This document shows positions 11,775 through 18,081 of a stretch of 64,000 nt of DNA, piece by piece; position 1 is the stretch's first letter, and each line of letters starts with the position of its first letter. The notes under the pieces are model-generated. The model was not told where the DNA came from, did not search any database, and saw nothing but the letters and a program-made list of their open reading frames with translations. Source of the DNA: Candidatus Zixiibacteriota bacterium. GTDB taxonomy: Bacteria; Zixibacteria; MSB-5A5; GN15; FEB-12. The translations under genes were made by a program, and so were the position numbers. Location of the stretch: positions 1 to 64,000 of the forward strand of contig JBFMDV010000026.1 in assembly GCA_040753875.1 (NCBI GenBank), given 5' to 3'.

Positions 11775-11803
11775 TTGACCTTTTGGCGATGTTATGGTAT
11801 ATA
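11775..11803 (+). promoter_or_regulatory. Sigma70-like promoter of the DUF1573 array
   Basis: TTGACC at 11775-11780, a 17-bp spacer, then TATATA at 11798-11803. The transcript would start near 11810, 41 nt before the first gene. Confidence 0.75.
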
Positions 11804-11850
11804 AACAGTTAGGCTGGAACATTTTAGAGGAATGGAACTATAACCGTTAC

Positions 11851-12552
11851 ATGAGACCCCTCCTTCTTGCCGCCCTCCTGCTTCTGGTCGGTGTTTTCTC
11901 CGGTTTCGGCCAGCCAAAACTCGAGATTCCGAGTAACAAGTTCGATTTCGGCATATCGCCGCAGAACGCCTCGCTGGTCCAGTTTTTCTGGTTCAAATCC
12001 ATCGGCACCGACACGGTGCGAATTACCAAGTTGACCACCGGCTGCGACTGCGCCACCATGCCGCTTCCCCAAAACTGGCTGGCCCCGGGGGACAGTATGC
12101 ATGTGGGGCTGTTCTGGCATTCGGAGAGAAAAGTTGGGAATTCGGGTCGTTACCCCTACATATTCACCAATGCTTCGCCTGATCCCTATCGTATATATCT
12201 GACGGCGTTAGTGATCAGCGGTATGGACTCAGCACATCCGGTCTCGGTCAAACCGTACAAAGTGGAACTCAGCAAGCTTCCGACCATGTCACTCGATACC
12301 ACGGCCATTACTTTCACCAACCATTCCAAGGACTCTTTTGCTCTGAGTGTTATTTCTTCACCCATAGCGGAGTGCGAGATCGAATTGCCGCAGGCGCTTG
12401 GGGGCAACAGAAGTTCAAACTGTGTCGTGAGGGTAAAGCCGGAGTACCGCGACCAGGAATTTGAGCGGTCGTTCACGGTGCTGTTCGAGGGGCCGGGCGA
12501 ACTGCGTTACCGCTATACGGTACCGGTTCGGCGCAAGATATACGGGAACTGA
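11851..12552 (+). CDS. DUF1573 secreted protein, paralogue 1
   Basis: First of four tandem genes for secreted proteins with an N-terminal DUF1573 domain, an Ig-like beta-sandwich of unknown role. About 233 residues. The start at 11851 gives a clear signal peptide (MRPLLLAALLLLVGVFSGFG). The domain begins LEIPSNKFDFG and carries the cysteine pair TGCDCA (Cys65 and Cys67), equivalent to PGCGCT in the paralogues. The second half is more divergent but ends in the same YTVPVRR motif. It is the most divergent member. The window gives no partner gene, and a thiol or metal-binding role for the CxC pair is only an inference. Confidence 0.85.
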   Translation: MRPLLLAALLLLVGVFSGFGQPKLEIPSNKFDFGISPQNASLVQFFWFKSIGTDTVRITKLTTGCDCATMPLPQNWLAPGDSMHVGLFWHSERKVGNSGRYPYIFTNASPDPYRIYLTALVISGMDSAHPVSVKPYKVELSKLPTMSLDTTAITFTNHSKDSFALSVISSPIAECEIELPQALGGNRSSNCVVRVKPEYRDQEFERSFTVLFEGPGELRYRYTVPVRRKIYGN

Positions 12553-12626: not shown

Positions 12627-13379
12627 ATGAAACATCGGACCCTTGCGGCGACCTTCCTGATCGGTGCCGCTCTGGTTGCGGGTCGGTCGTCGGCAGCGCC
12701 GCGGCTGACCATGCCGGAGACGGAATTCGATTTCGGACTGGTGCCGCAGAACTCCAAGATCTCGCATGTCTTCTGGCTGCATTCAACCGGCGAGGATTCA
12801 CTGAAGATCATTCAAGTGGTCCCCGGCTGAGGATGCACAAAAGCGCCCCTGGAACGGGACGTTATTGCTGTCGGTGACAGCACCAGACTCGAGATCATTT
12901 TTGACACCAAGTCGTACACCACCCCGGTGACGAAGCGGCCGAAGATTCAGACGAACGAGGGCCCGCCGGACAAGTTCGTGCAGATTAGCTGTATCATCTC
13001 CACCCGGCCGGACTCCACGTACCCGCTCATCATCAAGCCGTACAAGCTTGATCTGACGCAATTCGGCGATAAAGTCCGAAGCGAGATCAAGTTTACGATT
13101 GAGAACGTGGCCGACAAAGACCTCGACCTGACGTCGGTGTACACGCCCAACGAGCTTCTGGACCTCACCTTGCCGAAGCTGGTCAAGGCGGGTAAGACGG
13201 CCGAAGGGATCGTCAAACTGACCAAGGCGGGGATCGACCAGGAGTTCGAGAAGGCCATCACCATCTCGGTGTCCGACGAGAAAAACACGCGATTTACTAT
13301 CCCGGTCAAGCGGACCATCCGCAAGCCCGGGCAGGAGACGGCGTCGACGCCACTACCGGCCGGCAGTTCGGGACATTAA
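12627..13379 (+). CDS. DUF1573 protein, paralogue 2, with in-frame TGA at a conserved Cys (candidate selenoprotein)
   Basis: Read through the TGA at 12828-12830, the frame is open from the ATG at 12627 to the stop ending at 13379 and gives 250 residues, against 249 for paralogues 3 and 4. The TGA is codon 68. Paralogues 3 and 4 have Cys at exactly position 68 in PGCGCT, so the product would be PG-U-GCT. The rest is well conserved: signal peptide, DFGLVPQN, HVFWLHSTG, APLER, GDSTRLE, and FTIPVKRT near the end, with no other stop or frameshift. A hairpin with bacterial SECIS geometry follows the TGA (12842-12863). TGA ends many genes here (for example 12552, 14276 and 15162), so the code is not reassigned. 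The alternative is a recent nonsense mutation. I favour selenocysteine insertion, but it needs selABCD in the genome. Confidence 0.65.
12842..12863 (+). promoter_or_regulatory. Candidate bacterial SECIS hairpin
   Basis: Stem arms 12842-12849 and 12856-12863 around a six-base loop (TGGAAC, 12850-12855): three G-C pairs next to the loop, one C-A mismatch, then G-C, C-G, G-U and A-U. The loop starts 19 nt after the TGA and has G at its second position. As I recall the bacterial SECIS rules (a G within the first two loop bases, loop 16-37 nt after UGA, stem of 4 bp or more), it fits. I see no equivalent hairpin at the same place in paralogues 3 and 4. Confidence 0.55.
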
Positions 13380-13526: not shown

Positions 13527-14276
13527 ATGAACGGATTCAAGAAAGTAATCTTAACAACGGCAAGTTTGGTGGCGATCGCCACTTTCATTGCAGCTGCGCC
13601 CCAGCTTACCGTCCCGCAGGAGAAGCACGATTTCGGATTCGTGCCGCAAAACGCCAAAGTCTCGCACGTGTTCTGGCTTCGATCAACCGGCACCGATACG
13701 GTTCGTATCGCCAATGTCGTTCCCGGCTGCGGCTGCACCCGTACCCCTTTGGAGAAAAGCGTCCTGGCTCCGGGCGACAGCACTCGACTGGAAGTCATTT
13801 TCGACACTCGTTCCTACTCGGGCCTGGTGACCAAACGTCCTACGATCCAGTTCAGCGACGGCTCCCCGGACCAGCATGTTTCTTTCGTATGCAGTGTCAT
13901 GCCCTGTCCGGACTCATCCTATCCGATAGTTGTCAGTCCCTACAAGCTCGATCTTTCTCAGTCAGGCGGCAAGCCGCGCTCGGGAATGAAGTTCACAATC
14001 TCCAATGTTGGAACCAGCGATCTGAACCTTACTCTCAGCGATCTTTACGATGACCTATTTACGGTGCAGCTTCCGCGGACTCTCAAAGCAGGCAAGAAGG
14101 CCGAGGGGGCGCTGAAATTGACCAAGGCCGGCCAGGAGGCGGAATTCGAAAAGGCGTTCACGATTGTACTGTCGGATCAGCGAAACAGCCGCTTCACTAT
14201 CCCGGTGAAGCGAACTCTGCCCGGTCCTGGGGAGACAGCACCCCCCGAAACCAAGGTCGGAGCAGGGGGGCGGTGA
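13527..14276 (+). CDS. DUF1573 secreted protein, paralogue 3
   Basis: A secreted protein of 249 residues with a signal peptide (MNGFKKVILTTASLVAIATF...AAA) and an N-terminal DUF1573 Ig-like domain. Conserved motifs in order: LTVPQEKHDFGFVPQN, HVFWLRSTG, VVPGCGCT (Cys68, Cys70), LAPGDSTRLEV, and a second beta-sandwich-like half from about residue 140 ending FTIPVKRT. ggagg lies just before the ATG. It is the closest relative of paralogue 2 and is a useful Cys-containing reference for it. The proline/threonine-rich C-terminus has no anchor. Function unknown. Confidence 0.88.
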   Translation: MNGFKKVILTTASLVAIATFIAAAPQLTVPQEKHDFGFVPQNAKVSHVFWLRSTGTDTVRIANVVPGCGCTRTPLEKSVLAPGDSTRLEVIFDTRSYSGLVTKRPTIQFSDGSPDQHVSFVCSVMPCPDSSYPIVVSPYKLDLSQSGGKPRSGMKFTISNVGTSDLNLTLSDLYDDLFTVQLPRTLKAGKKAEGALKLTKAGQEAEFEKAFTIVLSDQRNSRFTIPVKRTLPGPGETAPPETKVGAGGR

Positions 14277-14412: not shown

Positions 14413-15162
14413 ATGATGGTTCGGAATCTGTTTCTTATTGCCACGATCACGACTTTGGTCGCAGCGAGGAGCGCGGAGGGTGGCCCGAAACTAACCATAC
14501 CGGGCGACCATTTCGATTTTGGGTTCGTACCCCAGAACTGCAAGGTATCCCACATTTTCTGGCTTCATTCGACGGGCGACGACACTGTCCGGATCGCTTC
14601 GGTGATACCAGGCTGCGGCTGCACCGAAGCCCCGCTCAAGAAGACAGCGTTGGCACCGGGTGACAGCACGCCGCTTGAGGTCACGTTCTCGTCCGGCTCC
14701 TACGTGGGGGCAGTCGTCAAGGAACCTTCCATTCAGTTGAAGAATGAACTGCCGGAGAGCCATGTTCAGATCAAGTGCCGGGTGGTGGTCCGCCCGGACT
14801 CAACCGCACCCATCGTCTTCAAGCCGTATGCACTGAACCTGACCCAGTTCGGCGAGACGCCCAGGACGGAGGCGAGATTCTCGATCACCAACGTGACTGC
14901 GGAGGACGTGAGTCTGTCGATCGAGAGTATTCCTGATGATGTATTAGCGCTGGAGCTGGCCACCACCGTGAAGGCAGGCCAGACCATTCAGGGGATCGTG
15001 AGGCTGAAACCGGAGGCAATGTCGCGCGGGTTTGACAAGTCGATCACGTTCAGATTATCGGATGAGCCAAGGAGCCGATTCACGCTGCCGGTCACGCGCA
15101 AGGCGCCGCCGACCGGGCCGCTCGCACCCACTGTCTCCAAGGTGCCGGGATCTGCTAACTGA
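14413..15162 (+). CDS. DUF1573 secreted protein, paralogue 4
   Basis: A secreted protein of 249 residues (two adjacent ATGs at 14413 and 14416 follow aggag). Signal peptide, then LTIPGDHFDFGFVPQN, HIFWLHSTG, VIPGCGCT with Cys68 and Cys70, LAPGDSTPLEV, and a C-terminal half ending FTLPVTRK. It has an additional Cys in QNCK (Cys43), not present in its siblings. Same fold and unknown role as the other members. It has its own likely promoter. Convergent with the GWxTD gene at 15273; no clear terminator was seen in the 110-bp gap. Confidence 0.88.
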   Translation: MMVRNLFLIATITTLVAARSAEGGPKLTIPGDHFDFGFVPQNCKVSHIFWLHSTGDDTVRIASVIPGCGCTEAPLKKTALAPGDSTPLEVTFSSGSYVGAVVKEPSIQLKNELPESHVQIKCRVVVRPDSTAPIVFKPYALNLTQFGETPRTEARFSITNVTAEDVSLSIESIPDDVLALELATTVKAGQTIQGIVRLKPEAMSRGFDKSITFRLSDEPRSRFTLPVTRKAPPTGPLAPTVSKVPGSAN

Positions 15163-15272: not shown

Positions 15273-16697
15273 TCAGTAGATATCGAGCATTTCATCTTTC
15301 AAGCGCTGAGCCCATTCGTCGCTGGAGCGTTCCCCCGGAACATTGGAGTGGACCAGCTTGAAATCGTGGTACCCTTCGACATCTTCAAACACGAACAACT
15401 TCCCTTCCCTCACCCCGCGATAGTACCAGATGACGAACGGGTTCCCCTTGCGAGGTGCCTGAACCTCGTCCTTCTGGTCATACGTGCCGTACGTCATGTA
15501 GATGCGACCCCGATCGGTCGACCAGCCGTTCGTGTTGTACTCATCAGTCGAGAAGTTGGCCTGCGAATAGCGGTACCGCCTGACATATTCGGAGCGTGGG
15601 TCGGCGCCGCTGTTCTTTGGACGATTGTCGTAGTCTTTCCAGTACTGGGACAGAAAATTCTGTTTGCCTGAATCGGACAAACGGTTCAAGGACGCTTTCT
15701 CGTTCGGTGTCAACAGGTAAGCGACCAGGTTTATCCGGTCCATATTCGAGAGTGAGTCATAAGGATCACGCGACAACCGCCCGGACAAAGCCATCTTGAC
15801 ATACTCCGGATCGACAATGCGAATCGGCAACGTGGCCGTGTCCTGTTGTCCCGATGCCGGGTCGGCGGCGATGATCCGCAGGGAGTATTTGCCGACCGGC
15901 CAGCCGCGAATATCCAAGGCTTCGGCCAGGACCGCGGACGTTCCCGGCTTCCGGCTTGTCCGAACGCCGAAATCACGGTACAGATTTCCCCTTTCGTCGA
16001 GCGCCAGGAACGCTACCTCGAACGAACTGTCAGTTGATATCGGCGACAGATTGTACAGCTCCGCATACACGAACGCGACACTATCCGCTATGCCACATAC
16101 GCCAGCCGGGTTCGGCAGCACGAGATGCTGATTCTTGACCATGCGGTCGTTGGCCGCCGGCGATGAATCAGAGACATACGAGATCCGATAGGCCAAACAG
16201 GGCCCGGCGAGTTCGAGATGGTCGCGCTGCGGGGGTGCCACCGAAAAGGGTCCCAGCACCAGGTCCTCGCTGTGTTTATTGACGACATCAATAACCGTCA
16301 GTTTCGCCGTGTACACGCCCGGCCGCACGACCAGAAGGAGCTTGTTGAAGATCATGCTTGTCGATGCCCTGGCCTCCGTCATGCTGGCGGCGCGGACCGA
16401 GAAATAGGTGTTGGTCGAATCCACGGCATTCGCGGCGGCGTTCATCAATACCACCTGAGCGAAAATACGGGCGTAGAACGCAGGGTCAGCCGAGTCCGGG
16501 CGGAAGAACTCGAAATCCGAGCGGTTGAGCGCGAACGGAAACTCCACCAGTGCTGCGGTATCGAGATCGGGATTGTTATAGACGAGCGGAGTGCCGTACA
16601 CAGCTATGCTCGGTTTCGCGATCGGTCCGTCAGACTGTGCGAACGACAATGCAGGCAGGGCTGCCAGTAGAGCCGACAAGATTATTCTCATGGTCAT
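15273..16697 (-). CDS. GWxTD-domain protein 2 (envelope, exporter operon)
   Basis: A secreted protein of 474 residues with a signal peptide (MTMRIILSALLAALPALSFAQ). The N-terminal two thirds look like beta-sandwich repeats. The C-terminal GWxTD domain is seen as NGWSTDRGRIYMTYG near residue 395, preceded by an SDSGKQNFLSQYWKDYD motif. GWxTD is a recognised domain of unknown function, common in FCB-group bacteria. The gene starts 10 bp after the other GWxTD gene, at the end of the exporter operon, so the product may be cargo or an accessory of that system. Function otherwise unknown. Confidence 0.85.
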   Translation of the reverse strand: MTMRIILSALLAALPALSFAQSDGPIAKPSIAVYGTPLVYNNPDLDTAALVEFPFALNRSDFEFFRPDSADPAFYARIFAQVVLMNAAANAVDSTNTYFSVRAASMTEARASTSMIFNKLLLVVRPGVYTAKLTVIDVVNKHSEDLVLGPFSVAPPQRDHLELAGPCLAYRISYVSDSSPAANDRMVKNQHLVLPNPAGVCGIADSVAFVYAELYNLSPISTDSSFEVAFLALDERGNLYRDFGVRTSRKPGTSAVLAEALDIRGWPVGKYSLRIIAADPASGQQDTATLPIRIVDPEYVKMALSGRLSRDPYDSLSNMDRINLVAYLLTPNEKASLNRLSDSGKQNFLSQYWKDYDNRPKNSGADPRSEYVRRYRYSQANFSTDEYNTNGWSTDRGRIYMTYGTYDQKDEVQAPRKGNPFVIWYYRGVREGKLFVFEDVEGYHDFKLVHSNVPGERSSDEWAQRLKDEMLDIY

Positions 16698-16707
16698 AGG
16701 GGGGCTT

Positions 16708-18081
16708 TCAGAAATCCGGACGTTGATTTAGTCCGTCGTACGGGTACTGCAATCGATACTCACCGTCATCATTTTCATCGACAAACGCAAATCGCTTGTA
16801 GCGGCCCTCTTTGTAGTAGTGCCAGATTTGATAGGGCGGGAGGTTTGGCGACATGGGAAAATCGTCTATCTGGTCGGGATCGCCGTAGGTGATGTAAATC
16901 CGGCCGCGATCGGTTCGCCAGCCGTCCTTACGCAGATAGCGGAAGACACGATTGGCGTAATTGACTCGCCGGTAAAATTCGCGCTTCGCTTCATTCTCAG
17001 GCGTACCTGCGGTGGGGTCTCGGGCAACCCAGAAGTCGTTGAAAGCATCGATCCGTTCCTCGAGCGTCTCAAGCTTCTTGATCTTGGAGACCTCGGAATT
17101 CGGGGCGATATAGGAAAGCTGCTCAATGGCAGCTTTGAAATCGTGCTTTAACAACCCTTCCTGTGTCCACGCGATGGTGAACGCCTCGGTGTGCTCATCC
17201 AGTGGCTTGTTACGCCGACCGCGCAGTGACGTCTCCAACTGGTAATCCCCCGGAGCGAAACTCCCAACGGCAATATCACGAAGCTGACGGACCACCGGAC
17301 CGTCCAGTGTCACGTAGAGCGTATCGCGATACAACATGCCCTTGGAGAGGCTGCGCACAATCGTCTCCATGACCACCTGTGGTACGGAATCTCGCCCGCG
17401 ATAGATCTCGACGTAAAACAGCAGCTTGCTGCTGTCGGTACCGCCGAAGATGCGGCTGACCGAAGGCACGACATCGACATTAGCCTTCCGAAAGACGGTA
17501 GACGCCCCGCTGTCGATACTGTTGGCCGCCTGAACAAACTCGATATCCGAAGTGATCGGCAGGTCTGAGGCGAAGCGACGGAGTTTCACCTTGAAATCGT
17601 CGCCAAAAACCGTGTTGCTCCGGCGATCACCAAGCGTTATCTGGACGCGATAATTTCCCGGCTCAAGCACGATATTCAACTGGCTGGTGCGGTAGTCGAA
17701 CCGTGAGAGCGTGCTGGCATACTCTTGCGTGCGGATGGACTTCTCCTGTTCGATCGCTTTCACCTGGTCGTCATCATCGTCCATGACTTTGGCGGTCAGG
17801 GTGTATTCCGCCAGGTAACCGCCGGAGTCCTTGACGAACTGGAGTCCGAAGTTGAATATCTGGTAATAGATTTCGAGCCGGCAACGGTTGGTATCGTCGG
17901 CATTGAACACGGCATGGTCAACCACGAAAGTAGGCTGTACGCTGTGCAGCGAGTTCTCGGCGCGTCCGTCGGCGCTCACAGCCGGCACGCCCAACGACGT
18001 AACCGCCAGCACAGCGAGAATATGAGACCACACCTGCCGGGAGAACATACTTCTTATACGCTTTAACCTGCTGGTTATCAT
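16708..18081 (-). CDS. GWxTD-domain protein 1 (envelope, exporter operon)
   Basis: About 457 residues (446 if the second Met at 18048 is the start) with a signal peptide ending in VPAVSA. It has the same plan as its downstream neighbour: predicted beta-rich N-terminal region, then an ISYIAPNSE..LEERIDAFNDFWVARDPT segment and the domain core GWRTDRGRIYITYGDPDQ near 400-420. The pair are distant paralogues. It lies 66 bp after the second permease gene and 10 bp before the second GWxTD gene. No catalytic motif is recognisable. An association with ABC export is an inference from gene order. Confidence 0.85.
   Translation of the reverse strand: MITSRLKRIRSMFSRQVWSHILAVLAVTSLGVPAVSADGRAENSLHSVQPTFVVDHAVFNADDTNRCRLEIYYQIFNFGLQFVKDSGGYLAEYTLTAKVMDDDDDQVKAIEQEKSIRTQEYASTLSRFDYRTSQLNIVLEPGNYRVQITLGDRRSNTVFGDDFKVKLRRFASDLPITSDIEFVQAANSIDSGASTVFRKANVDVVPSVSRIFGGTDSSKLLFYVEIYRGRDSVPQVVMETIVRSLSKGMLYRDTLYVTLDGPVVRQLRDIAVGSFAPGDYQLETSLRGRRNKPLDEHTEAFTIAWTQEGLLKHDFKAAIEQLSYIAPNSEVSKIKKLETLEERIDAFNDFWVARDPTAGTPENEAKREFYRRVNYANRVFRYLRKDGWRTDRGRIYITYGDPDQIDDFPMSPNLPPYQIWHYYKEGRYKRFAFVDENDDGEYRLQYPYDGLNQRPDF

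Follow-up and report, generated by a model that had tools for sequence, protein, structure and literature searches.

The question raised by this locus is whether an in-frame UGA in a DUF1573 gene of a Candidatus Zixiibacteriota bacterium is read as selenocysteine (Sec) and, if so, which RNA signal directs the recoding. The window, that is, the whole stretch of 64,000 nucleotides analyzed here, lies on contig C26 of a Zixibacteria MAG (39 contigs, listed completeness 100%). According to Pfam, it contains four DUF1573 genes in a row, three of which carry TGC in the alignment column of the UGA codon (the U68 column). The gene, its critical codons, and its neighbors are:

12627..13379, + strand: probable Sec-containing DUF1573 gene (Pfam DUF1573, 2.9e-22; orthologues with in-frame TGA in 72 genomes)
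12828..12830, + strand: UGA codon 68, very probably selenocysteine, which opens the U-G-C motif
12834..12836, + strand: TGC codon of the partner Cys70
11794..12552, + strand: upstream tandem DUF1573 paralogue with Cys (Pfam DUF1573, 1.9e-13)
13527..14276, + strand: downstream Cys paralogue 3, ending in an ordinary TGA stop, sister of paralogue 4
14413..15162, + strand: downstream Cys paralogue 4 (DUF1573), TGC in the U68 column
15273..16697, − strand: convergent GWxTD-domain gene, a conserved neighbor (Pfam GWxTD, 1.6e-08)

The frame from 12627 to 13379 was open apart from codon 68 and gives 250 residues with U68, and both paralogues 3 and 4 had TGC in the aligned column; a reading made from the sequence alone had claimed this frame and this exchange of TGA for the paralogues' Cys, and both held. 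The protein scored 78.9 bits against the DUF1573 model PF07610, above the gathering cut-off of 26.1. The true start of the upstream paralogue is probably the ATG at 11851.

A homologue search over 132 genomes of the phylum recovered DUF1573 in 128. Named relatives of the gene were mostly Candidatus Zixiibacteriota MAGs. Within the family and order to which the window belongs, exactly one TGA was present in the majority of the best orthologues. Loci were fetched, 174 DUF1573 domains from related genomes were aligned, and the codon in the U68 column was read: TGA in 79, TGC in 59, TGT in 34, TCC in one, and a gap in one. Thus, position 68 held TGA, Cys (93 domains), or a single Ser, with no stop other than TGA, which is the pattern that the sequence-only reading had proposed to look for among homologues. 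The TGA form was found in 72 genomes from 45 genera. G67, U/C68, and C70 were invariant in 60 aligned proteins, and the Cys70 codon was TGC in 76 of 79 Sec genes versus 11 of 26 Cys genes. In the tree, the upstream tandem copies formed a weakly supported clade that was all Cys except for one Ser row, and the Sec genes belonged to another clade, in which Sec and Cys interchanged repeatedly; well-supported branches force at least 11 such changes. A DUF1573 copy was located directly upstream in 63 of 77 Sec genes.

The genome encodes the complete set of components that had been named as a check on the claim. Specifically, tRNA-Sec was present at C26:144710-144802 (64.3 bits, over the cut-off; also called by ARAGORN, with anticodon TCA), selB and selA were adjacent at C26:130601-133830, on the same contig as the window, and selD was on contig C19 with one in-frame TGA of its own. 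Among the 72 genomes with the TGA gene, selB was found in 65, tRNA-Sec in 55, selD in 63, and one or both of selB and tRNA-Sec in 70, while two fragmented MAGs (G053 and G068) had the TGA gene with neither selB nor tRNA-Sec found. This co-occurrence has little power as a test because nearly all genomes of the phylum have the machinery (116 of 132 have selB). Genome-wide reassignment of TGA was ruled out, since TGA serves as the ordinary stop in 20 of the 34 main ORFs of the window, paralogue 3 among them.

SelD is itself UGA-encoded in this genome (G000:C19:36270-37196, L123) and elsewhere in the phylum (L149-L160). Many genomes of the phylum also had a second SelD without TGA (L131-L148, L150, L154), encoded within a frame that runs to roughly 560-900 codons and usually to 735-780, which suggests that it is part of a fusion protein. 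Additionally, one in-frame TGA occurs in the gene of a molybdopterin oxidoreductase resembling formate dehydrogenase (G000:C10:21756-22505, L130), which is probably a further selenoprotein.

Downstream of the UGA, we identified two adjacent hairpins:

12842..12863, + strand: hairpin 1 of the SECIS region, proposed spacer helix (covariation; synonymous-codon test)
12867..12881, + strand: hairpin 2 of the SECIS region, proposed SelB-binding hairpin (GCUGUC-GGU-GACAGC; unique in the window)

Hairpin 1 has the form AGCG-CCC-CUGGAAC-GGG-ACGUU in the window, with its loop 18 nt after the UGA. Folded from the window alone it was no more stable than shuffles (z -0.47), and family tests were therefore used. 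In 48 sequences from 45 genera the stem covaried, the wobble base of an Ala codon pairing with position 2 of a Glu/Val codon (U-A 27, A-U 8, G-C 3), with a score that was reached by none of 500 shuffles and exceeded all slid registers. In a synonymous-codon test, in which the fold is compared with those of random synonymous recodings drawn by local codon usage, hairpin 1 surpassed 95% of recodings in 64 of 78 Sec genes versus 6 of 26 Cys genes. Its loop begins 17-21 nt past the UGA, with register and span varying among Sec genes.

Hairpin 2 was far more constrained. The sequence GCTGTCGG[TC]GACAGC was matched exactly in 73 of 79 Sec genes versus one of 26 Cys copies, in which the region generally has differing codons and a broken stem, and the loop was GGU or GGC in all 79 Sec genes. 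It was significant by the synonymous-codon test in 78 of 78 Sec versus 2 of 26 Cys genes. Because the sequences are related, neither these counts nor those for hairpin 1 represent independent events. Within the class, the same region was also present in eight Sec genes that are more distantly related, with hairpin 2 significant in seven. Hairpin 2 yields no covariation because its sequence hardly varies; its synonymous sites, frozen in Sec genes only, show selection at the RNA level. Cys copies in G027 and G086 that are close to Sec genes retained a GCTGTCGG[T/A]GACAGC hairpin, as expected for Sec-to-Cys converts. In a search of the genome with a two-hairpin model, the window gene scored 66 bits and the other DUF1573 copies 27-31 bits; no other gene was found, and there was one further match at chance level. 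The sequence-only reading had placed a hairpin at 12842-12863, with correct coordinates and a stem that proved to covary in the family, but this is half of the signal, and the stronger hairpin at 12867-12881 had been missed.

The exchange of TGA for Cys, the full selABCD set, and the conserved downstream RNA structure together strongly support the earlier proposal of a selenoprotein gene, and we consider it very probable, from these comparative data, that UGA68 encodes selenocysteine. Taken by itself, as a single MAG in which neighboring copies have TGC, the locus might instead represent a pseudogene or an assembly error, the TGA being a defect in a Cys gene that is no longer functional, but that explanation is refuted by the identical TGA in 72 genomes and 45 genera, by the open frame on both sides of it, and by the specificity of the RNA structure to Sec genes, and its probability is close to nil. 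Bacterial UGA is generally leaky, and so the codon could be read otherwise, through programmed termination to give a short peptide or through readthrough with Cys or Trp. However, UGA is aligned only with Cys (and one Ser), the Sec machinery is complete, TGA serves as an ordinary stop elsewhere, and, apart from two recently converted copies, the SECIS-type structure occurs in TGA genes only, leaving such a reading quite improbable. Slightly less credible still is that the hairpins reflect protein constraint on an AVGDS motif and not RNA function. Hairpin 2 does overlap a conserved A-x-G-D-S motif, but Cys copies retain that motif through other codons without the hairpin, the synonymous-codon test separates the Sec from the Cys genes, and a Sec lineage with an IPPGGEG motif carries a different hairpin in almost the same position.

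Which hairpin constitutes the SECIS is a more evenly balanced matter. The published distance for bacterial SECIS elements (bSECIS) places the loop 16-37 nt after the UGA (PMC13188914), and the criteria we applied were a loop of 3-9 nt at this distance, with G in the first two loop positions followed by G/U. Hairpin 1 fits the distance but matched the loop pattern in only 27 of 79 Sec genes, a rate not above that of Cys copies (10 of 26). Hairpin 2 fits the loop in all 79 genes, though at a distance of 42 nt from the UGA. The SelD SECIS of the window genome, CGCCAAA-GGU-UUUGGCG, lies 20 nt after its UGA, and in this and ten other genomes of the phylum the element consisted of one hairpin whose loop reads G[G/U]U, located exactly 20 nt after the UGA in nearly all. 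Like such canonical elements (E. coli fdhF type, phylum SelD), the window gene has a hairpin with a small G[G/U] loop in the coding region just after the UGA, but it differs in having two hairpins and in the position of its GGU loop. With hairpin 1 folded, the residual distance to the hairpin 2 loop was most often 16 nt (range about 16-32). We therefore favor a composite SECIS, since hairpin 2 has a SelD-like loop at the wrong distance and hairpin 1 has the distance without the loop. SelB and tRNA-Sec would decode UGA68 using a recoding signal composed of the two adjacent hairpins, in which SelB may bind hairpin 2 via the GGU-loop element, and hairpin 1, as a distance-restoring spacer, would fold up most of the excess distance and so place hairpin 2 like a single-hairpin SECIS. 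We give this two-hairpin arrangement an even chance, and hold hairpin 2 as the likely SelB-binding element to be about equally balanced against its rivals. A layout with two hairpins was seen in two divergent Sec-DUF1573 lineages whose stem sequences are unrelated. The possible, though less probable, alternative is that the SECIS proper is hairpin 1, which lies at canonical distance, and that hairpin 2 is accessory, causing pausing or blocking competing folds. The start of the hairpin 1 loop, similar to that of SelD, and its covarying stem favor this alternative, as does a TGA copy with hairpin 1 only; its loop sequence is unconserved, however, with G[G/U]U in two of 79, and it is hairpin 2 that is more constrained and bears the SelD-like loop. 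The TGA copy concerned is a diverged DUF1573 gene without hairpin 2 (L119, G086:C7:44208-44849), which is either decaying or else served by hairpin 1 alone.

If a composite SECIS is the true signal, searches that need a single hairpin at 16-37 nt overlook such genes, and the natural exception allows a direct test of the SelB distance rule.

The family itself is known in the broad sense, contrary to the suggestion that it would be new. A DUF1573 selenoprotein was reportedly first described from the deltaproteobacterial symbiont of Olavius algarvensis. Published tables of selenoprotein families include a "DUF1573 domain-containing protein, UGC" (PMC9312934; PMC13188914), and NCBIfam holds a model, NF041425 (OS_HP2 family (seleno)protein). 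Those selenoproteins share the domain of the window protein and likewise have Sec first in U-G-C. The window protein scored 70.8 bits against NF041425, below the curated cut-off of 100 for the only curated model found, which places it in a distinct lineage; none of the 132 phylum genomes passed that cut-off. The literature searched yielded no description of the two-hairpin signal, and the text retrieved on Zixibacteria selenoproteins held no mention of DUF1573. The Zixibacteria branch and its two-hairpin signal thus look new. Under standard annotation, genes of this kind end at residue 67 or are split, and selenium use in Zixibacteria extends to a phylum-wide, probably extracytoplasmic lineage of U-x-C selenoproteins.

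Several phylum genomes had a longer, OS_HP2-like Sec gene with one TGA (frames of 320-418 aa, 80-96 bits), which in some coexists with the window-type gene and has a different hairpin. The loci concerned (GSUGCTAAV...IPPGGEG; L161, L163-L165, L167-L174, L177, L200) carry an invariant UUCCCC-CGGG[U/C]-GGGGAA hairpin 40 nt past the UGA, preceded by a stem-forming stretch. A third Sec-DUF1573 lineage (UGCT...GIVIPP; L175, L178, L181, L183, L186, L188, L189) has the hairpin GCGGAAU-AGUU-AUUCCGC, with a long stem and its AGUU loop 29-32 nt after the UGA, which by its predicted structure is an ordinary single SECIS. For the main hairpin of both lineages, the synonymous-codon test gave weak results (0 of 14 OS_HP2-type and 0 of 8 GIVIPP-type genes at 0.05).

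The AlphaFold2 model of the window protein comprised two Ig-like domains (mean pLDDT 93.8) with an N-terminal helix in front that reads as a signal peptide, so that the protein is presumably exported, and U68 was placed in a loop of domain 1. A sequence search found no solved relatives. The best fold match was 2QSV (Porphyromonas gingivalis, function unknown), which domain 1 resembles in fold (Z 14.4, 1.8 A over 101 residues), followed by HYDIN and PapD-like domains; likeness to 2QSV and to HYDIN/ASH/PapD-like Ig domains is in fold only, at 19% identity, and is uninformative on function, for which the literature searched on DUF1573 provided nothing useful. From the U-x-C motif and the signal peptide, the U-G-C pair would most likely form a reversible selenenylsulfide or bind a soft metal outside the cytoplasm.

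Homologues of the GWxTD gene were reverse-strand ORFs downstream of the Sec gene in 62 genomes. In the window, two successive GWxTD-domain genes occupy the minus strand at 15273-18081, convergent with the DUF1573 row.
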